DNA of 17,317 nt from Undibacterium sp. (GTDB lineage: Bacteria > Pseudomonadota > Gammaproteobacteria > Burkholderiales > Burkholderiaceae_D): positions 1 to 17,317 of the forward strand of contig JAIELM010000163.1 in assembly GCA_019752975.1 (NCBI GenBank), read 5' to 3'. The notes beneath the pieces are model-generated. The model was not told where the DNA came from, did no database searches, and saw nothing but the letters and a program-made list of their open reading frames with translations. Of this stretch, positions 9,338 through 17,317 are shown piece after piece. The translations under genes and the position numbers were made by a program. The stretch's first letter is position 1, and each line of letters begins with the position of its first letter.

Positions 9338-9676
9338 TTATTTCGGCACGTTATCGATGTTCACCAGCCCCAATTGACATGGGCGAATCACCTGTGGAAT
9401 CAACAGGACTCCGGTAGGCGGGTAACTATAGGTATAAGAAGTCACCGTATTATCAACTAAAATTTGACAAGACGCCTTAGACGACGCTTGCAAAATAATA
9501 ATGGCGGTGGAATTTGTTGGATTGTGTGGTTGAGGTACACGTACCGCCGCAGTCCACAAAGAGCCACCACCAGGACCGTTGCTAATATAGGCATGGGCTG
9601 CCTGCATCAGAAAAACACTCGTTGCAAGTCCACAAATCACAAACACTACATTAGCTATTTTTTTCAGATAATTCAT
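9338..9676 (-). CDS. Small secreted protein of unknown function
   Basis: 112 aa; I do not recognise the family. The start is well supported: GGAG (9686-9683) lies six bases before the ATG. A clear signal peptide has a basic MNYLKK start, a hydrophobic core VVFVICGLATSVFLMQA and likely cleavage AHA|Y near residue 29. The mature chain of about 83 residues is rich in Ser, Thr, Pro and beta-branched residues, with GGGSLWTAAVRVPQP after a Gly-rich start, a Tyr-rich YTYSYPPTG segment (81-89) and two cysteines (70 and 100) that could form one disulfide. The predicted product is a small beta-rich periplasmic or secreted protein. It converges on ubiH and stands alone, next to a patch of mobile DNA, so it may be accessory. 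Confidence 0.65.
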   Translation of the reverse strand: MNYLKKIANVVFVICGLATSVFLMQAAHAYISNGPGGGSLWTAAVRVPQPHNPTNSTAIIILQASSKASCQILVDNTVTSYTYSYPPTGVLLIPQVIRPCQLGLVNIDNVPK

Positions 9677-9964
9677 TTACGTCTCCATATAGATTATTAA
9701 GTTAACAAAATAAATAAACTCAATTAAACCAGTAAAAATGATAGACGCTAGCCAGTTCAGTTCCCATACAACAGAAAATCGGCGACTACCCTCAATCAAT
9801 TTCTACATAATGCAATCGAGTAGAACACGCCGCAAATCAATAAAAGCTTTAAATAAATTGAATTCGTGGCGCGCAAAAAGTATAAGTCATTTATAAAACT
9901 CATTATTACCAATATTAAAAATAATCATATTACGTAACACTTCTTAACATTGGAACTTACCACT
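9677..9964. other. AT-rich intergenic stretch without a recognisable gene
   Basis: Between the start of the small secreted gene and repeat R2. It should contain the promoter of the minus-strand gene (TTAATAATC-like AT-rich segments lie close to its Shine-Dalgarno), but no convincing -35/-10 pair was identified. No ORF with a family resemblance and no strong hairpin was seen. Confidence 0.5.
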
Positions 9965-10088
9965 AGGACTTACGCAAAATTGCGCTGGCGAGAGCCTGCC
10001 CTCGAATGCTTGAATCGGGGGAGCGGAGCCACCCGCAATACAATTGCACGTCACCGCAAACCAACAACGCCAACGTCGATTTTGCGTA
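9965..10088. repeat. R2: MITE-like repeat, inverted copy of R3, interrupted at its right end
   Basis: It begins with AGGACTTACGCAAAAT. Its first 66 bp (9965-10030) match the reverse complement of 10471-10536 with only three mismatches. The inner right half has diverged, but it ends in ATTTTGCGTA (10079-10088), the inner ten bases of the right terminal repeat. The missing end AGTCCT reappears at 10352-10357, after a 263-bp insertion. It is non-coding and the same family as R1 (3649) and R3 (10406). Confidence 0.7.
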
Positions 10089-10158
10089 TCTATGGACGCC
10101 TTCCTTTTTGCAAGTGATTTTTTGATTTTTTCCTATGGCTTTATTTGCTTGCCTCTAC

Positions 10159-10284
10159 TTATCCCAAATCCATGTCGCGCGTTAGCATCTTCTTGTAGAC
10201 GATTTTGCCTTTCTCATCTAGCCCTATTTCGGCAAATACCGACTTAGCAATATCCAAACCCATCACTTTTACGATAGTATTCAT
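10159..10284 (-). pseudogene. IS110-family transposase, N-terminal fragment
   Basis: A 41-codon frame from the ATG at 10284 to TAA at 10159. The reading MNTIVKVMGLDIAKSVF, then GLDEKGKIVYKKMLTR, closely follows the usual N-terminus of IS110/IS1111 transposases (GxDxAKxxF...G.D..GK.V..K.L.R), the start of their RuvC-like DEDD domain. The aspartate in GLD at residue 10 would be the first catalytic acid. A full enzyme has about 320-400 residues, so everything after roughly residue 37 is lost, including the rest of the DEDD set and the C-terminal serine domain. The fragment cannot be active. Too short for certainty, but the pattern is distinctive. Confidence 0.65.
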
Positions 10285-10316
10285 GATGGACTATCCCACT
10301 CCTTGTTTGCCTTTCG

Positions 10317-10336
10317 GCCAAGCTGATCGGCTTGGC
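10317..10336. repeat. 7-bp hairpin in the left end of the IS110 remnant
   Basis: GCCAAGC (10317-10323) and GCTTGGC (10330-10336) pair around a 6-nt loop, about 33-52 bp upstream of the transposase start. It could be part of the structured or subterminal-repeat region that IS110-family ends contain; that is inference from position. Confidence 0.4.
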
Positions 10337-10405
10337 ACATGAATTTCATTAAGTCCTAAGCTCCTATGTTTAATCTGTATTACTATTACACTCTTCTATT
10401 TATTT

Positions 10406-10536
10406 AGGACTTAGGCAAGACAGACACTGGCGTTATTGCGTTCGCCTTGTCGTACAAATGTGCTGCCTGCGGCTCCGCGCCCCCGATTCAAGCAGTCGAG
10501 GGCAGGCTCTCGCCAGCACAATTTTGCGTAAGTCCT
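10406..10536. repeat. R3: MITE-like repeat directly upstream of the two-partner-secretion operon
   Basis: 131 bp bounded by AGGACTTAGGCAAGAC on the left (two mismatches to the family end) and ATTTTGCGTAAGTCCT on the right. The left 76 bp match R1 at 67 of 76 positions. Relative to R1 it has 28 bp more on the right side, and that part is shared with R2. It ends 50 bp before the proposed start of tpsB, so it may supply or disturb promoter sequences or form a hairpin in the leader. No coding capacity. Confidence 0.75.
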
Positions 10537-10586
10537 ATTATTTTACGATTCAGCACTAATTTGGTTTTTTTATAGGATCTTTTGTT

Positions 10587-12377
10587 TTGGCTCGTCACTT
10601 CGTTTATTTCAACAGAAACAATCAAGCAGTGTCTAAGGTGAGATGTTCGCCCTATCATAGTTCGAGAAAATATGTTTGTGGCATGATTGCCATAGTGCTT
10701 AGCAGTGTCAGCTTGACCCTAAAAGCGCAAACACCAATTACACTAAGCCCACAATTAAGCACGCAATTAAGCGCGCAATTAAGCACGCAAATAAGCACAC
10801 AATTAAGCCCGCAGCTCAACTCAAATTCAGATGTCAATTCAAAGTCATTCGTCTATCAACCACAATATGTGATTGGGCTGCCGCTACGTGCTCTGGAATT
10901 CCTTGGCAATACAAAAATATCGACAGAAGCTTTAAATCATGTCCTACAAGATTTTTTAGGAAAATCGATTTCGGCTAGTGATGTTGAAGAGATGCGCACG
11001 CGCTTGAGCAAGATGTATGTCGATCAGGGTTATCTTAATTCAGGCGCGGTGTTTGTGTTGCCAAGTTCGCCCTCTACTAGTGATCGCTTGCAATTTCAGA
11101 TAATTGAAGGACAAATACAGGAAGTACGGCTTCAGGGTTTGCAAGGTTTACATGAGCGCTATATCAAGCAACGTCTGCCGAGTACCAACCAAGTACTAAA
11201 CATGCAGGCATTGCGGGAGCAATTTCAACTCCTATTGCAAGATCCTCTGTTTGAACGCATACAAAGTCGCCTACTACCGACGGGCACTTTGGGTGAAGCC
11301 ATATTGGAGCTCGATGTCGTGCGTAAGCCCAGCTACAGTTATTCGTTATTTGCCAATAACTACCGTTCGCCAGCGATTGGTGAAGTGATTCTCGGCGCCT
11401 CTGCGACCGTGCGCAACTTGACTGGGAATGGCGATGCCTTCGACGTGCAAGCGGGAAAAAGTCATGGCGCTACGCCTTATCATCTGGCTTGGACGACTAG
11501 CTTGAGCGACCCTAGCCACAGTCTTCAGATCAGTTGGGATCAGGGACGTAGTTCAGTGGTGGAGGCGCCATTAGATTTGGTCGATATTCATAGCCAGACC
11601 AATGCTTTGGAATTGAAGTGGAATCACGTTTTAACTCAGACTTTGTCGCGTCGGATTGATATTGGGATTGCGCTGAATAAGCGGCAAACCAGAAGTAGTT
11701 TGTTGGGCGAAGATTTTTCTTTTAGCCCTGGCGAGGTGAATGGTCGTTCTAGAACGCAGGTTTTGAAATTCTCCCAAGAATGGAGTGAACGTGGTGAAAC
11801 CGACGGCTTATTACTGCGTTCTATCTTCCATTTTGGTCGAAATAATTTGCAAGCCAACGAACCACCGTCTACGGTAGGAACTGAAAATACAGCTGTGCCA
11901 CCGCGTCAGTATTGGATGTGGAACGGACAGCTACAATGGCTTAAGCAAATTTCTGGCTGGGACGCACAAATTTTGCTGCGCAGCCAGTGGCAATGGAGCT
12001 CTATGAGTTTGATCTCTATGGAAAAAATGGCGGTAGGAGGCATAGCCACTGTACGCGGCTTTAGGGAGGGCAGCTTATTGCGAGATCAGGCACAAATGTT
12101 CAGTGTCGAGTTTCACAAAAATTTGTTTAAGGATGCGGCTAAATCGAGTCAAGTATCGGCTTACCTATTTGTCGATGACGGACGCGGAAAAAATCATCAC
12201 GAAGTAGCGCAGTCCATGTCTTCTTACGGCATAGGATTAAAGGCGCAATACGCGGCCTGGTTTGCTGATCTCAGTTTCGCTAAACGTATCGAGGTTCCCA
12301 CACATCTCGCGCACCAAGAAAAAACGACCTGGCAAGACAAAGGTGTGCAGTTGCAACTCGCTTATAAATTCAATTAA
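10587..12377 (+). CDS. Two-partner-secretion outer-membrane transporter TpsB (ShlB/FhaC/HecB family)
   Basis: Omp85-superfamily pore that exports its TpsA partner across the outer membrane. As read from TTG at 10587 (AGGAT about 10 nt upstream) it has 596 aa. The exact start is uncertain: GTG at 10635 or ATG at 10683 are alternatives, and the signal peptide core MIAIVLSSVSLTLKAQ ends near residue 48 in this numbering. Next come a low-complexity tetrapeptide repeat (55-78), POTRA domains at about 95-245 (PLRALEFLGNTKIS..., then LQFQIIEGQIQEVRLQGLQG) and the beta-barrel. The barrel holds the hallmark VRGF (489-492, the conserved plug-loop motif) and FVDDGR (528-533), and ends in an aromatic-rich strand with terminal LAYKFN. 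The CHAT gene begins 2 bp downstream. It lacks a recognisable separate activation domain, so adhesin or other exoprotein export is as likely as hemolysin export. Confidence 0.92.
   Translation: MARHFVYFNRNNQAVSKVRCSPYHSSRKYVCGMIAIVLSSVSLTLKAQTPITLSPQLSTQLSAQLSTQISTQLSPQLNSNSDVNSKSFVYQPQYVIGLPLRALEFLGNTKISTEALNHVLQDFLGKSISASDVEEMRTRLSKMYVDQGYLNSGAVFVLPSSPSTSDRLQFQIIEGQIQEVRLQGLQGLHERYIKQRLPSTNQVLNMQALREQFQLLLQDPLFERIQSRLLPTGTLGEAILELDVVRKPSYSYSLFANNYRSPAIGEVILGASATVRNLTGNGDAFDVQAGKSHGATPYHLAWTTSLSDPSHSLQISWDQGRSSVVEAPLDLVDIHSQTNALELKWNHVLTQTLSRRIDIGIALNKRQTRSSLLGEDFSFSPGEVNGRSRTQVLKFSQEWSERGETDGLLLRSIFHFGRNNLQANEPPSTVGTENTAVPPRQYWMWNGQLQWLKQISGWDAQILLRSQWQWSSMSLISMEKMAVGGIATVRGFREGSLLRDQAQMFSVEFHKNLFKDAAKSSQVSAYLFVDDGRGKNHHEVAQSMSSYGIGLKAQYAAWFADLSFAKRIEVPTHLAHQEKTTWQDKGVQLQLAYKFN
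10749..10820 (+). repeat. Six in-frame 12-bp tandem units in tpsB
   Basis: Units of (cc/ac/gc)-RCAATTAAGC type, the last one degenerate (CCGCAGCTCAAC), encode PQLS-TQLS-AQLS-TQIS-TQLS-PQLN. They lie just after the signal peptide, where TpsB proteins carry the plug helix and linker. The 12-bp period keeps the frame, so copy-number change by slippage would vary the length without killing the gene. Confidence 0.85.
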
Positions 12378-12379
12378 GT

Positions 12380-14839
12380 ATGGAAAACATGAAGCTAGTG
12401 CCCCAAAACCGATACCCTAGTCGACACCTTAGTCGACCCACAATGACCACACGGCGAGCATTATTCGGGCTGTGGTCAGGCGTGTTTTCTGGCTGGTTGG
12501 GTTGCGCATGTTTGTTGTTTTCGCAGCTGACGCAGGCGCAAGATATCGGCAGTAGTGCCACCACGCCAGCGGCATCGTATGGCACCTGCCAATCAAGTTT
12601 TTTAATCAAACTGCAGCTGTTACGCGCACGCTATCAAACTGAAGGCGATCAGGCGATGCGGGGCGCTGCCGCCTTGGAATTGGCGCTACATTTGCAGCAA
12701 ATGGGACGCTATCAAGAGGCTTATCATGTTGTGCAAGAGGCCTTGAACCAAACACTCCTGCCATTACAACGTGCGCATGCATTGGTTGCGCTAGGAAATA
12801 TCGATATCGAATTGGGACGCCGAGATCTGGCCGAGCAAGCCTATCGTGATGCTATTGGAATTGCACCTGGTGTGGCCGAAGTCACGCTGAGTGTCGCACT
12901 GAATCAATTGGGTCTATTACCCGCTAAGCAAATAAGCACAAGTGCATTGAAGTCGGTCGAAAACACATTACAGCAGCTCCCCGACGATGAGATGAAGGCG
13001 CGCTTTTTGGTGCAATACATTTTACAAGCGAAACGCAGTGGCGCGTTTACTTCGAGTTATTTGGAACAAAATTTAGAACAGGCTTTACTGATCGCGAACT
13101 CAATTGGCTCGCGCTATTTGCAAATTGAAATTTTGGATCAGCAGGCGCAATTATTCGAGGAGCGGGAGCGAGATAGTGAATTGATGGCTGTCTCAGATCG
13201 TGCGATTCTCTTGCTGCAGCAAATTGATGCACCAGAATTGATGATTGCGATTGAGGCGAGGCGCGGTCGGGTTTTTACACGACATCAGCAAATTCAGAAT
13301 GCGATTAAAAGCTTTCAAGCCGCAGCACGCTATATTCGAGAAATTCGCCAGGATATACCGGTCTCTTATGCACAAGGACGATCAAGCCTGCGCGAAATCA
13401 TCGATCCGGTTTACCTAGGATTGGCTGATGCTTTGCTCAAACAGTCCGAACAGAGCAAGCCGGCGGAGCGGGCCATGATGCTGTATCAAGTACGGGATGT
13501 GATTGAGGAAATTAAACAGAATCAATTCGATGATTATCTCGGGAATCATTGCAGTACCAGCGCCGCAAACTCGGCTTCAGAAAAAAGTGGGAGTAAAAGT
13601 CAGGATTTGAGCTCATCCAAGTCACTGCGATTGGCAGCGGGAACCGCCGTGTTGTACCCAATTATCTTCCCCGATCGCTTAGAGTTATTGCTAGAAACCT
13701 CGGATGGCATCGTAGGCCATAGTGTCGCCATCAATGCAGAAAAATTGAATCAAGATGTCATGGCGCTGTCGAGCGCTTTGCGCGCCAATCACACTTACCA
13801 GACTTTGTCGCGTCGTCTGCATCGAGTATTATTGGCGCCCTTGGAGCAAGAATTAAGTTCACGAAAAATTGCAAACTTGGTGATTGTGCCGGATGGCGTA
13901 TTGCGCCTGTTAGCTTTTGCCGCACTTCATGACGGCAAACAGTATGCAATAGAAAAATACGCCATCGCGATTTCACCAGGCTTACGCATCATCGCTCAGC
14001 AAGGGCCACAAAATGACCCACAGCGACCGGATGCTGCGCCCCATACTGTGCTGTTGGCAGGCCTTAGCGAACCTGGTGCTGTGGTAGAACGCTTACCTGA
14101 TGAATTGGTAGATCAGCTATTACAGGAAGACGAAACCGATAGCGATCAATTGCGTCGCAGCCTAGTCCGACAAAGGGCGTTACGAAATAGCACAGCCACT
14201 ACCAGCAGTGCGCCCCTACCACAGCAAGTTGATGGCGCGAAAACCGTCGTGGAAGACGCGCAACTCATTTCGGAAAAGTTAAAGCATGTTTTGCGATTGG
14301 ACGGTGTTCAAGCGGAAATCACTTCTTTGCATCAGATCGTGCATGGTCGCACCATGTTAAATCAAGAATTCACTTCCAGCAATTTTGCACAGCAGGTGCG
14401 CAGCGGTCAATTTGATATTGTGCATGTCGCATCGCACGGCATTTTTGGAAGTAGTGCAGAGAAGACTTTTATCTTAGCCCATGATGAGCCTATTACGATC
14501 GATCAGTTTCAGACCTTGCTGTCGGCAGATGGTTTAAATATACGCCCTTTAGACTTGCTCATTTTATCGGCCTGCGAAACAGCGGAAGGCGACGATAGAG
14601 CGCCTTTAGGAATCTCGGGTGCCGCTTTGAAAGCGAAAGCCCGTAGCGCTATAGGCTCGCTATGGCCGGTATCGGATCTGGCGGCGAATCAATTAATGCA
14701 GCGTATATACGAGAATTACATCAATAAAAAACTAAGTAAAGCGCAATCTTTACGACTAGCGCAGTTGGATTTGATGCGACAAGCCTTGTATGCACATCCT
14801 AGCTATTGGGCGGCCTTTATCTTGGTGGGGAGTTGGTAA
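12380..14839 (+). CDS. Exported TPR-CHAT domain protein, putative cysteine protease of the TPS operon
   Basis: 819 aa. An N-terminal basic stretch and hydrophobic core (MTTRRALFGLWSGVFSGW... about 22-53, likely cleavage after TQA) predict Sec export. Helical, TPR-like repeats fill about 95-385 (e.g. LALHLQQMGRYQEAYHVVQEA, LGNIDIELGRRDLAEQAYRDAI), followed by a Ser/Lys-rich linker (391-416). The CHAT caspase-like domain spans about 420-819. It opens with the family phrase LVIVPDGVLRLLAFAALHDG (500-519), then the catalytic His in VHVASHG (H686) and the catalytic Cys in LLILSACETAEG (C732), ending SYWAAFILVGSW. Both dyad residues are intact. A charged, Gln/Ser-rich insert (about 575-625) interrupts the domain. 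It starts 2 bp after tpsB and its stop overlaps the tpsA ATG, so it belongs to the secretion system; cleavage of TpsA or TpsB is my inference. ATG at 12389 is an alternative start. Confidence 0.88.
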   Translation: MENMKLVPQNRYPSRHLSRPTMTTRRALFGLWSGVFSGWLGCACLLFSQLTQAQDIGSSATTPAASYGTCQSSFLIKLQLLRARYQTEGDQAMRGAAALELALHLQQMGRYQEAYHVVQEALNQTLLPLQRAHALVALGNIDIELGRRDLAEQAYRDAIGIAPGVAEVTLSVALNQLGLLPAKQISTSALKSVENTLQQLPDDEMKARFLVQYILQAKRSGAFTSSYLEQNLEQALLIANSIGSRYLQIEILDQQAQLFEERERDSELMAVSDRAILLLQQIDAPELMIAIEARRGRVFTRHQQIQNAIKSFQAAARYIREIRQDIPVSYAQGRSSLREIIDPVYLGLADALLKQSEQSKPAERAMMLYQVRDVIEEIKQNQFDDYLGNHCSTSAANSASEKSGSKSQDLSSSKSLRLAAGTAVLYPIIFPDRLELLLETSDGIVGHSVAINAEKLNQDVMALSSALRANHTYQTLSRRLHRVLLAPLEQELSSRKIANLVIVPDGVLRLLAFAALHDGKQYAIEKYAIAISPGLRIIAQQGPQNDPQRPDAAPHTVLLAGLSEPGAVVERLPDELVDQLLQEDETDSDQLRRSLVRQRALRNSTATTSSAPLPQQVDGAKTVVEDAQLISEKLKHVLRLDGVQAEITSLHQIVHGRTMLNQEFTSSNFAQQVRSGQFDIVHVASHGIFGSSAEKTFILAHDEPITIDQFQTLLSADGLNIRPLDLLILSACETAEGDDRAPLGISGAALKAKARSAIGSLWPVSDLAANQLMQRIYENYINKKLSKAQSLRLAQLDLMRQALYAHPSYWAAFILVGSW
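14827..14832 (+). promoter_or_regulatory. Strong Shine-Dalgarno for tpsA inside the CHAT gene
   Basis: GGGGAG lies six bases before the tpsA ATG and within the last codons of the CHAT gene. It fixes the tpsA start at the TAATG overlap and suggests efficient, coupled translation. It is much stronger than the initiation signals of tpsB and the CHAT gene. Confidence 0.75.
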
Positions 14840-17317
14840 TGAAGCGACAAGCGATACAACAAGCGATGCAACAAACGATACGACAAGCGATGCAAAAAAA
14901 AATAAATTCACCTCAAGCACCAAAAAAATTACTGGCAATGGCGGCGCTCAGCTGCTTGCTTAGCGCAAATGGCGTGGTGTTCGCTGATGTACGTACTGAT
15001 GGTAGTTTGGGCGCAGTACAAGCATTGAGTGGCAACATGATAGTCCCGCAAACTTTGGGACAGATCAAGGGGCAAAATTTATTCCATAGTTTTTCCCTGT
15101 TGAATGTCAATGCCGGCGAATCATTAAGCTTCACCACCACCGATAGTTTTCAAAATGTCGTGACACGTGTCACCGGTGGCACGCCGACCACTATACAAGG
15201 TTTGTTGCAGCTTAGTGCAGCGACGGGTTCCAAGCCTAATTTCTATTTGATCAATCCGAATGGCATTGTCTTTGGTGATGGCGCCATAATTGATGTCCCT
15301 GCGGGTTTGCATTTAAGTACCGCGAATTATTTACAATTTGCTGACGGCCGGTTTCACGCCGACCTGAACGCCGCTAGCAGTTTATCTACCGCGGCACCAG
15401 AAGCCTTTGGTTTTCTTGGTGGTACGAACGCCAGTGTGCGATTCGCTGACTCTGTAAAAATTGAGTCAGTAGGAGCACGCCCTATCAGTTTGATTGCGGG
15501 TGAAATCAGTATTGACAATACCGTGCTCCGTAGTGATGGTGGAGATATTCGTGTCATGGCGGTAGCCGATGCCAAGCAATTGATTGACACTAGTATGCGC
15601 GCAGACATGCGCTCGGATCTAAGAGGCAAGATAGAGATCACCAATGCTGGACATTTAGATTCTTCTGGTAGCGTCGGTGTTGACGGTGGAAATATTATGG
15701 TCAGTGGTGGCAATATTCAAATTGGCTCACCTGAGCGCGAGTCGTTTCGCGGCATCGCCAGTAATGCCACAGCGCTCAGTGGTAAGGCCGGGAATATCAC
15801 GGTGAATGCAACTGGTACCCTCACGATTGTGGGGGGGAATAGCGTCACCTCGTCAACCTATGGCAAATCCGATGCGGGTTCCGTCACCGTACATGCGAGA
15901 AACATGTTAATTGATGGCCAAAATCTGACTTCGGTGGGAATTCATAGCAATGCAGAAAGCGGAACGGGAAACGCAGGCCACGTCGATGTTAGGATAGACG
16001 AAAGCTTGCATATTCAAAACGGCGGTGCGATTGCCACCTCCACGTTTGCCGAGGGCAAGGCTGGGTTTGTTGCGGTCAATGCCAAGAATATTGTTCTAGA
16101 TGGGCAAGGTATTGTCACAGGTATTGTGAGCGACACCAACAGCCATTTTTCAAATGCGGGGCTGGGTGGCGAAGTGTCAGTGCAAGCGACTGAAAAAATT
16201 TCTATCCTTAACGGTGCTAGTATTTCGGCCTCCTCATTTACTGTCGGTAATCGCTATACGGCAGCCTCAGCAGGAAAAATTTCTATACTAACGAAGGACT
16301 TGTTCCTAGACGGACTAGGCAATACTAGAACCGGTGTGCGTAGTTTCACCGCCAGCGTAGGCAATGCCGGCAATATTGAGATTAAAGCGAGTGGTGACGT
16401 AAGCATAGTCAATGGCGCCAATATTACGACAGAGACGAACTATCTCGGGGCCGGTGGTAACATTGCTTTGCGTGCGAAGAATCTTTACATTGACGGTCAG
16501 GGCGATAAACACACAGGAATTTTCAGCAATGTCGGCACTCAAGGCAGAGCTCAAGCGGGTAACGTCAATGTCCAAGTCGATGAGCTCTTACGTCTACAAA
16601 ATTCCGCCAAAATATCCAGTTCTACCGATAGTTATGGGCGTGCCTCCGCAGGATCCATATCGATAGAAGCGCGCAATATTGAACTGAGCGGTGCGCTAGA
16701 TTCTAGTTTGCCACGTACTGAAATTGTAAGTACCGCCCACGCCGATGATTATGATCTTTATTCGACTGGTAACGCGGGATCGGTCACCGTCAAGACAAGT
16801 GAAAACCTACTTCTGCAACATGGTGCCAGCATTTCTTCGAGCACCTATTACAAAGGAAGCGCAGGCACAGTCAAAGTAGACGCGCGCAATTTGGCGCTAG
16901 AAAGTGACGCTGTAATTAGTTCGGAAGCAGGTGAATTTTCCTCGGGACAAACCGGCAATATTAGTTTGCATGCAGCCGAGGCGATACGTGTTGATCATGC
17001 GCAGGTCTCAATTCGAAATCTAGCGACCGTTGCAAAACCAGAAGTGATTATCGGCACTAGCCTGCAACTACAAGCCGATGCCCTACAACTAGATCATGCC
17101 GACATTACCGCTGCATCGAGTGGTAATGTGTCGGCGAGTCAAATTCAAATTGATTTTGGACGGCAGATGCGTTTATCACCTTCCTTGATTACCACCAGTG
17201 CGGTCAGTGGTAATGGTGGAAGTATTCGCGTAACTGGTAATGGCGCTTTGATTTTGCAGCAGTCGCAAATTAGCACCTCGGTGACCGGTGTTGATAATGG
17301 CAACGGTGGAAATATTG
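14839..17317 (+). CDS. TpsA exoprotein, filamentous-haemagglutinin-type secretion domain with beta-helical repeats (3' end beyond window)
   Basis: Secreted partner of the TpsB/CHAT operon, open for 826 codons to the window edge without a stop or frameshift. The start is the ATG overlapping the CHAT stop. The N-terminus has a polar tetrapeptide-repeat segment (3-22), then a hydrophobic signal core LLAMAALSCLLSANGVVFA with likely cleavage at A|D near residue 49. The haemagglutinin activity/TPS domain runs from about 50 to 300, with the hallmark NPNGIVFG at 139-146. From about 315 the chain is a repetitive beta-helix. Roughly 65-70-residue units begin with (N/S)AGxV/I, contain an INGASIxSST-like turn and a second AGxIxIxAxNLxLDGxG line, and show at least six copies before the edge. 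This wording resembles exoproteins often paired with CHAT proteins in cyanobacteria rather than Bordetella FHA. No cysteine-rich adhesin or toxin tip is visible; cargo function is unknown. Confidence 0.9.
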   Translation, partial: MKRQAIQQAMQQTIRQAMQKKINSPQAPKKLLAMAALSCLLSANGVVFADVRTDGSLGAVQALSGNMIVPQTLGQIKGQNLFHSFSLLNVNAGESLSFTTTDSFQNVVTRVTGGTPTTIQGLLQLSAATGSKPNFYLINPNGIVFGDGAIIDVPAGLHLSTANYLQFADGRFHADLNAASSLSTAAPEAFGFLGGTNASVRFADSVKIESVGARPISLIAGEISIDNTVLRSDGGDIRVMAVADAKQLIDTSMRADMRSDLRGKIEITNAGHLDSSGSVGVDGGNIMVSGGNIQIGSPERESFRGIASNATALSGKAGNITVNATGTLTIVGGNSVTSSTYGKSDAGSVTVHARNMLIDGQNLTSVGIHSNAESGTGNAGHVDVRIDESLHIQNGGAIATSTFAEGKAGFVAVNAKNIVLDGQGIVTGIVSDTNSHFSNAGLGGEVSVQATEKISILNGASISASSFTVGNRYTAASAGKISILTKDLFLDGLGNTRTGVRSFTASVGNAGNIEIKASGDVSIVNGANITTETNYLGAGGNIALRAKNLYIDGQGDKHTGIFSNVGTQGRAQAGNVNVQVDELLRLQNSAKISSSTDSYGRASAGSISIEARNIELSGALDSSLPRTEIVSTAHADDYDLYSTGNAGSVTVKTSENLLLQHGASISSSTYYKGSAGTVKVDARNLALESDAVISSEAGEFSSGQTGNISLHAAEAIRVDHAQVSIRNLATVAKPEVIIGTSLQLQADALQLDHADITAASSGNVSASQIQIDFGRQMRLSPSLITTSAVSGNGGSIRVTGNGALILQQSQISTSVTGVDNGNGGNI
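14845..14892 (+). repeat. Four in-frame 12-bp tandem units in the tpsA signal region
   Basis: Units CGACAAGCGATA, CAACAAGCGATG, CAACAAACGATA and CGACAAGCGATG, with a fifth decayed unit at 14893-14904, encode RQAI-QQAM-QQTI-RQAM-(QKKI). They extend the basic n-region ahead of the hydrophobic core of the signal peptide and add internal ATG codons in frame. As in tpsB the period is 12 bp, but the unit sequence differs. Confidence 0.85.

Follow-up and report, generated by a model that had tools for sequence, protein, structure and literature searches.

Two-partner secretion (TPS; type Vb secretion), as known from FhaB/FhaC, HMW1/HMW1B and HxuA/HxuB, relies on an outer-membrane transporter, TpsB, with POTRA domains and a ShlB barrel, and on an exoprotein, TpsA, with a TPS domain, both encoded in one operon. 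In the sections of a 2017 review on which we draw (PMC5422565), TPS operons seem to contain no protease genes, and those proteases known to mature TpsA are encoded at other sites. We analyzed a 17,317-nucleotide stretch of DNA from Undibacterium sp. (the window), which is an entire contig (C7) of a genome bin of 3.2 Mb and 73% completeness. It encodes a TpsB with POTRA_2 and ShlB barrel and a TpsA with an N-terminal TPS domain but, unlike the known systems, has a protease gene within the operon. The product is a TPR-CHAT protein with predicted export. We propose, with a probability of roughly 0.6, that it is a dedicated periplasmic cysteine protease of the separase/craspase type that recognizes TpsA by a C-terminal signature and cuts at or near a basic residue, maturing or releasing the exoprotein.

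The three genes follow one another on the plus strand (Table 1). The tight operon described in the original prediction is borne out by the coordinates and by the Pfam matches (ShlB at 91.7 bits and POTRA_2 at 43.9 bits in TpsB, the TPS domain at 88 bits in TpsA, and CHAT at 178 bits against a curated cut-off of 24, together with TPR, in the middle gene). As had been claimed, the CHAT stop codon and the TpsA ATG share one base (TAATG, 14837-14841). The claimed 2-bp gap between TpsB and CHAT holds if translation begins at ATG 12380, but becomes about 65 bp if it begins at ATG 12443, the start that agrees with the 798-aa database entry for this protein (P0001). The nearest named relatives of the protein are from Undibacterium. 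Its score above the curated cut-off and its His/Cys dyad place it in the CHAT peptidase family (PF12770), and the dyad that had been read as intact, His686 and Cys732, is kept almost throughout the 101 aligned rows, the window's included. The signal peptide noted earlier is likewise predicted, from the hydrophobic nature of residues 29-48 or so and the TQA/Q after them, which fit a Sec signal with the cut point judged by eye.

Relatives of this CHAT protein are encoded next to or in the vicinity of TpsB and/or TpsA, in varying order, in Beta- and Gammaproteobacteria, Desulfobacterota, Nitrospirota, Planctomycetota, Myxococcota, and Cyanobacteria; the named loci are recorded from Betaproteobacteria, Methylococcales, relatives of Thiotrichales, Desulfobacterota, Nitrospirota, Scalindua, Methylomirabilota, Magnetococcales, Myxococcota, and Cyanobacteria. 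Among close relatives the system is patchy, since any match to the CHAT protein was found in 26 of the 98 relatives searched, the window genome included. Nine loci besides the window's matched at E < 1e-100, eight of them from the same genus (42 other same-genus genomes searched). The order TpsB-CHAT-TpsA is kept in all eight (L121-L128), and the ninth, from the same family (L129), is ordered otherwise.

We delimited a clade of these CHATs by a profile-score and length cut, which replaced an earlier pattern label (21 of 84 named CHAT open reading frames [ORFs] had a TPS gene and no pattern match). A class-level sample of 369 genomes contained CHAT in 57 and the TPS domain in 122, and 60 regions surrounding the strongest CHAT matches, the weakest at E 1.8e-34, were examined, with one 195-aa piece omitted and weaker matches excluded. 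In these regions a TPS gene lay within 8 kb of 15 of the 25 clade CHAT ORFs versus 2 of the 45 others (p = 4e-7), and on the same strand within 500 bp of 8 of 25 versus 1 of 45 (p = 8e-4). Ten clade ORFs had no TPS gene, four of them on contigs shorter than 10 kb. Among 80 named loci, which were chosen by similarity among the matches listed from a search with alignment A1, a TPS gene was within 8 kb for 62 of 78 clade ORFs and on the same strand within 500 bp for 50 of 78. At the genome level the tie between any CHAT and TPS was weak (p = 0.015), and the link is thus with the clade and not with CHAT generally. A tree of every third named locus agrees roughly with the clade, with a branch of support 92 separating 43 rows (41 without a TPS gene, 2 with one), although its deepest forks are weak (22), its branches are long, and near-copies also make labels cluster.

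Gene order was scored on the same strand within 500 bp for 117 clade ORFs, which combine three sets with some overlapping loci. TpsB upstream with TpsA downstream occurred 17 times, TpsB upstream only 25 times, TpsA downstream only 11 times, TpsA upstream only 16 times, and neither 48 times. The ordered trio that the original prediction had put forward for a genome search is kept in eight other same-genus genomes, but the middle position of CHAT is not general; the association of CHAT with TPS is wide, and it is the association that is conserved. The pairwise distances of TpsB, CHAT, and TpsA co-vary as had been anticipated (r = 0.91, 0.93, and 0.90 over 24 loci, with 0 of 2000 permutations as high in each case), a result also expected from common descent. 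The proposal that the CHAT protein is part of the secretion locus is upheld by the trio in the eight other same-genus genomes, the link in other phyla, these distances, and the natural fusions described below. Two candidates were set aside. An apparent TpsB-CHAT fusion in L209 crosses an ambiguous base (X) and then continues with a Met and a signal peptide, so that it is probably two genes, and G028 was rejected as a clade genome, its CHAT being split over two frames without the clade pattern.

The TpsA proteins linked to these CHATs have in common a C-terminal signature, roughly C-x(n)-S-x-[FL]-x(3)-G-R-[GD]-G-[LI]-P; when aligned (A2, 33 rows) it reads as a Cys, then S-x-[FL], then G-R-[GDE]-[GA]-[LI]-P. 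A strict pattern caught 45 of the 89 complete TpsA ORFs next to these CHATs, and in seven same-genus orthologues the signature lies about 10 residues from the C terminus. The contig ends inside the window's own TpsA, whose C terminus is thus not visible, and we infer from these orthologues that it carries the signature as well. The Cys is conserved at 98% (107 fusion rows) and 97% (111 mostly unfused rows with the motif aligned). Within two tandem arrays the signature is more conserved than the middle of the protein (69 and 64% versus 42 and 41% identity); across diverse loci it was not favored (34 versus 33%).

A profile of the signature, searched in the 369 genomes irrespective of position, matched 20, of which 18 were strong and two marginal and partial. 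Some CHAT was present in 16 of the 18 strong genomes (p = 1.7e-12) and a clade CHAT in 15 (p = 6.6e-20). Within the 122 TPS genomes, the signature occurred in 14 of 17 with the CHAT clade versus 1 of 105 without it, where clade labels rest on the regions examined and 17 of the 57 CHAT genomes (weaker matches) are counted as non-clade. Since its rows came from TpsA at CHAT loci, the profile is not independent of linkage; the genome test ignored position. As a separate observation, unlinked TpsA of G032 (L348, L349, L350, L353) have a diverged signature, for example KRLEG for GRGG, and two clade CHATs lie elsewhere in that genome.

This tracking of the CHAT clade by a specific C-terminal signature bears on another conceivable role for the CHAT protein, one of quality control, in which stalled or misfolded TpsA would be removed from the TpsB channel by proteolysis at no specific site. 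TPR domains bind peptides, and locus linkage would fit such a role as well. The signature speaks against it, as do the rather strict P1 preferences of clan CD families (PMC4357240), and we regard it as very unlikely.

Some genomes have many TpsA for each CHAT locus. Eighteen of the 19 genomes covered for 20 named loci contained the signature, with 1 to 58 matches per genome. In Calothrix brevissima, 11 TpsA genes stand in tandem, every one of them with a signature match some 70 residues before the end of its product, and a CHAT gene follows 4 kb beyond; two further genomes have similar but less tidy clusters. These cyanobacteria also carry dozens of other CHATs, and for this reason we make no strict one-protease claim for them.

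In other bacteria the two proteins are joined. We queried with the CHAT portion of a Desulfobacterales protein of 2090 aa and took the best 120 of 333 matches, among which a script found a TpsA domain and CHAT on one chain in 110. All 110 had a signature profile match preceding the TPR-CHAT part under a permissive cut-off (a few below 30 bits, one at 11), and 100 passed a simple check of the catalytic motif. The named fusions are mostly from Desulfobacterota-type bacteria and Magnetomorum, with a few from Gammaproteobacteria, and are thus related to each other. The architecture is already visible in database names such as 'Filamentous hemagglutinin family N-terminal domain-containing protein, CHAT domain-containing'.

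Fusions of a surface beta-helix to a caspase-like domain, and many TpsA per CHAT locus in some genomes, could also be read as a signaling device. TpsA would then be a sensor spanning the outer membrane and CHAT its periplasmic effector. Binding on the outside would activate the protease against other proteins, in the manner of conflict or cell-death systems. Several carriers, which we take to be filamentous or multicellular (Nostocales, Desulfonema, Beggiatoa relatives, Magnetomorum), would suit this idea, and in the portion of the cited work consulted (PMC10907252), CHAT counts among the effector domains of conflict systems in multicellular bacteria. Sensing alone does not explain a conserved junction signature with a mostly basic residue, however, and it comes without a known target; we consider it quite unlikely. 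A combined version, to which we give the same low standing, would have the TpsA beta-helices serve as surface receptors wired to a periplasmic caspase, such that contact or completed secretion triggers a CHAT cut at the junction signature and an envelope response (release, aggregation control, or cell death), with TpsA arrays converging on one protease.

Structural modeling is consistent with a protease of the proposed type. The modeled fold of the CHAT protein is that of the craspase TPR-CHAT protein (Csx29) and of separase, at 11% identity to Csx29 in the structural alignment, and a profile search of solved structures returned TPR-type matches among the best 60 of 274. Asp766 is a candidate for the acid that would bind a P1 arginine, since it is positioned after the strand following the Cys strand, like the acid proposed for separase (PMC4626109). 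Two CHATs scoring like the clade, P0176 and P0182, have an OmpA domain between TPR and CHAT, and one of them has SPOR as well, which points to the periplasm; their starts look von Willebrand-like by eye, and they are perhaps peptidoglycan-bound variants.

Under the proposed cleavage, the TpsA tail would still be in the periplasm once translocation ends, which is how the account consulted (PMC5422565) describes HMW1 and HxuA, and CHAT would cut it at or beside the basic residue of the signature. The consequence would depend on the cysteines. Counting Cys after residue 60 in 110 signature TpsA ORFs, we found exactly two in 71, one in 18, and more in 21. In two-Cys proteins, mostly one Cys is inside the signature and the other in the tail, and a cut might open an anchor loop. 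The window's same-genus orthologues fall among the single-Cys group; with only one Cys, a cut would simply trim the tail. A disulfide between this single Cys and the invariant C391 of CHAT was considered as a candidate. In the fusions, cleavage would release the exoprotein from a CHAT that is folded in the periplasm.

The same counts raise the alternative that the signature is a mere C-terminal cap or an HMW1-like disulfide anchor of one TpsA lineage, and that CHAT inherited the neighborhood and acts elsewhere or as a scaffold. The two cysteines of most signature proteins do resemble the C-terminal pair that forms a loop in the HMW1/HxuA anchor as treated in the consulted sections (PMC5422565), and three of the 18 strong signature genomes lack a clade CHAT. 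No loop within TpsA is possible in the 18 single-Cys proteins, however, the window's orthologues among them, and the catalytic dyad is kept in 100 of 101 rows. We think this alternative unlikely.

Several observations weigh against the cleavage proposal itself. The signature genomes without a clade CHAT are G028, G099, and G366, and conversely 5 of 20 clade genomes lack a strong signature (G000, where TpsA is truncated, G153, G209, G233, and G301); three TpsA inspected in G301 end in degenerate versions. The Arg is not strict, its column being R or K in 86% of the 107 fusion rows, which were chosen without regard to this residue, and in 84% of the 111 mostly unfused rows, a figure inflated by 33 profile rows picked for having R, K, or Q. 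Predicted export is not clade-specific, as it was also found in 39 of 60 CHATs outside the clade, the clade being defined somewhat differently in that comparison. When a piece of a natural fusion was modeled, the signature came out as a flexible loop of low confidence (residues 41-58, predicted local distance difference test [pLDDT] < 50) that did not dock into the active site. Common inheritance of a single TpsA/TpsB/CHAT lineage could alone account for the co-occurrence. The catalytic Cys is replaced by Ser in two relatives, P0053 and P0055; these are perhaps pseudo-enzymes.

Table 1. Features of the TPS locus in the window.
Feature	Coordinates	Strand	Remarks
TpsB outer-membrane transporter	10587..12377	+	596 aa from TTG start, start codon uncertain; ShlB 7.8e-26, POTRA_2 2.2e-11
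POTRA_2 domain of TpsB	10881..11111	+	Pfam, residues 99-175
TPR-CHAT protein, predicted exported	12380..14839	+	819 aa; start 12380 or 12443; CHAT 3.1e-52; AlphaFold2 pLDDT 86.9
Likely signal peptide (predicted)	12443..12538	+	Residues 22-53; hydrophobic stretch found by script, model helix 29-48, cleavage point judged by eye
Helical TPR superhelix and linker	12599..13585	+	Residues 74-402; contains C391
C391 codon	13550..13552	+	Invariant, 101/101 aligned rows
CHAT protease domain	13802..14833	+	PF12770
Catalytic His686 codon	14435..14437	+	Kept in 101/101 rows
Catalytic Cys732 codon	14573..14575	+	Kept in 100/101 rows
Asp766 codon, candidate P1-arginine-binding acid	14675..14677	+	101/101 rows
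TpsA exoprotein	14839..17317	+	3' end missing at contig end; TPS domain 9.4e-25, adhes_NPXG
TPS secretion domain of TpsA	14989..15723	+	Pfam, residues 51-295

The named genes to the left of the operon (RsmA, PdxA, SurA, LptD, AmgK, a nucleotidyltransferase, and a UbiH-like gene) are of the housekeeping kind. Shuffled sequences held more promoter-like sites than the real one (9.4 versus 5), and Rfam gave no match. Directly upstream of TpsB is an element (9964-10537) with 98-nt inverted arms (86% complementary). It belongs to a repeat family with at least 92 matches in the genome, many of which are the two arms of one copy, and its interior, read by eye, looks like part of an IS110-type transposase encoded on the minus strand. 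Another minus-strand feature, an ORF of 112 aa (9338-9676), had no NCBIfam match.

TPS is normally taught as a two-protein system, and the CHAT protein with its tag would, if our proposal is true, add a processing layer to type V secretion. It would also assign a role to one clade of exported CHATs in several phyla, with many tagged proteins in cyanobacteria, and provide a simple tag-and-protease pair amenable to laboratory testing. The recurrence of the pairing in several phyla, along with the tag that the exoproteins share near their end, suggests that the caspase-like protease performs a trimming or release step. No description of the pairing or of such a step was found in the open-licence PubMed Central literature, subscription papers being outside this scope.

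Parallels with described systems are partial. In the sorting pairs of sortase and of exosortase/PEP-CTERM, as here, secreted proteins that bear a shared C-terminal signature exceed the enzyme in number; unlike in those pairs, nothing indicates transpeptidation or a membrane anchor for CHAT and TpsA. Separase shares the caspase-like fold with the modeled CHAT protein; it is eukaryotic, cuts cohesin, and is far larger. The craspase protein Csx29 has TPR and, by its fold, CHAT in common with the modeled protein, but it cleaves Csx30 and has target RNA bound to Cas7-11 as its switch, as described in the parts of the report consulted (PMC10028731), whereas the CHAT here is predicted to be exported and stands at a secretion locus. 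No Cas7-11 lies beside CHAT among its neighbors in the window, to which this search was confined. LapG of Pseudomonas belongs to another protease family than CHAT. In the sections consulted (PMC5422565), LapG is likewise a periplasmic protease that acts on the C-terminal tail of a TpsA adhesin, CdrA, and releases it; LapG is under cyclic di-GMP (c-di-GMP) control, whereas the CHAT proposed as its parallel is encoded in the TPS operon and elsewhere may be fused to TpsA.
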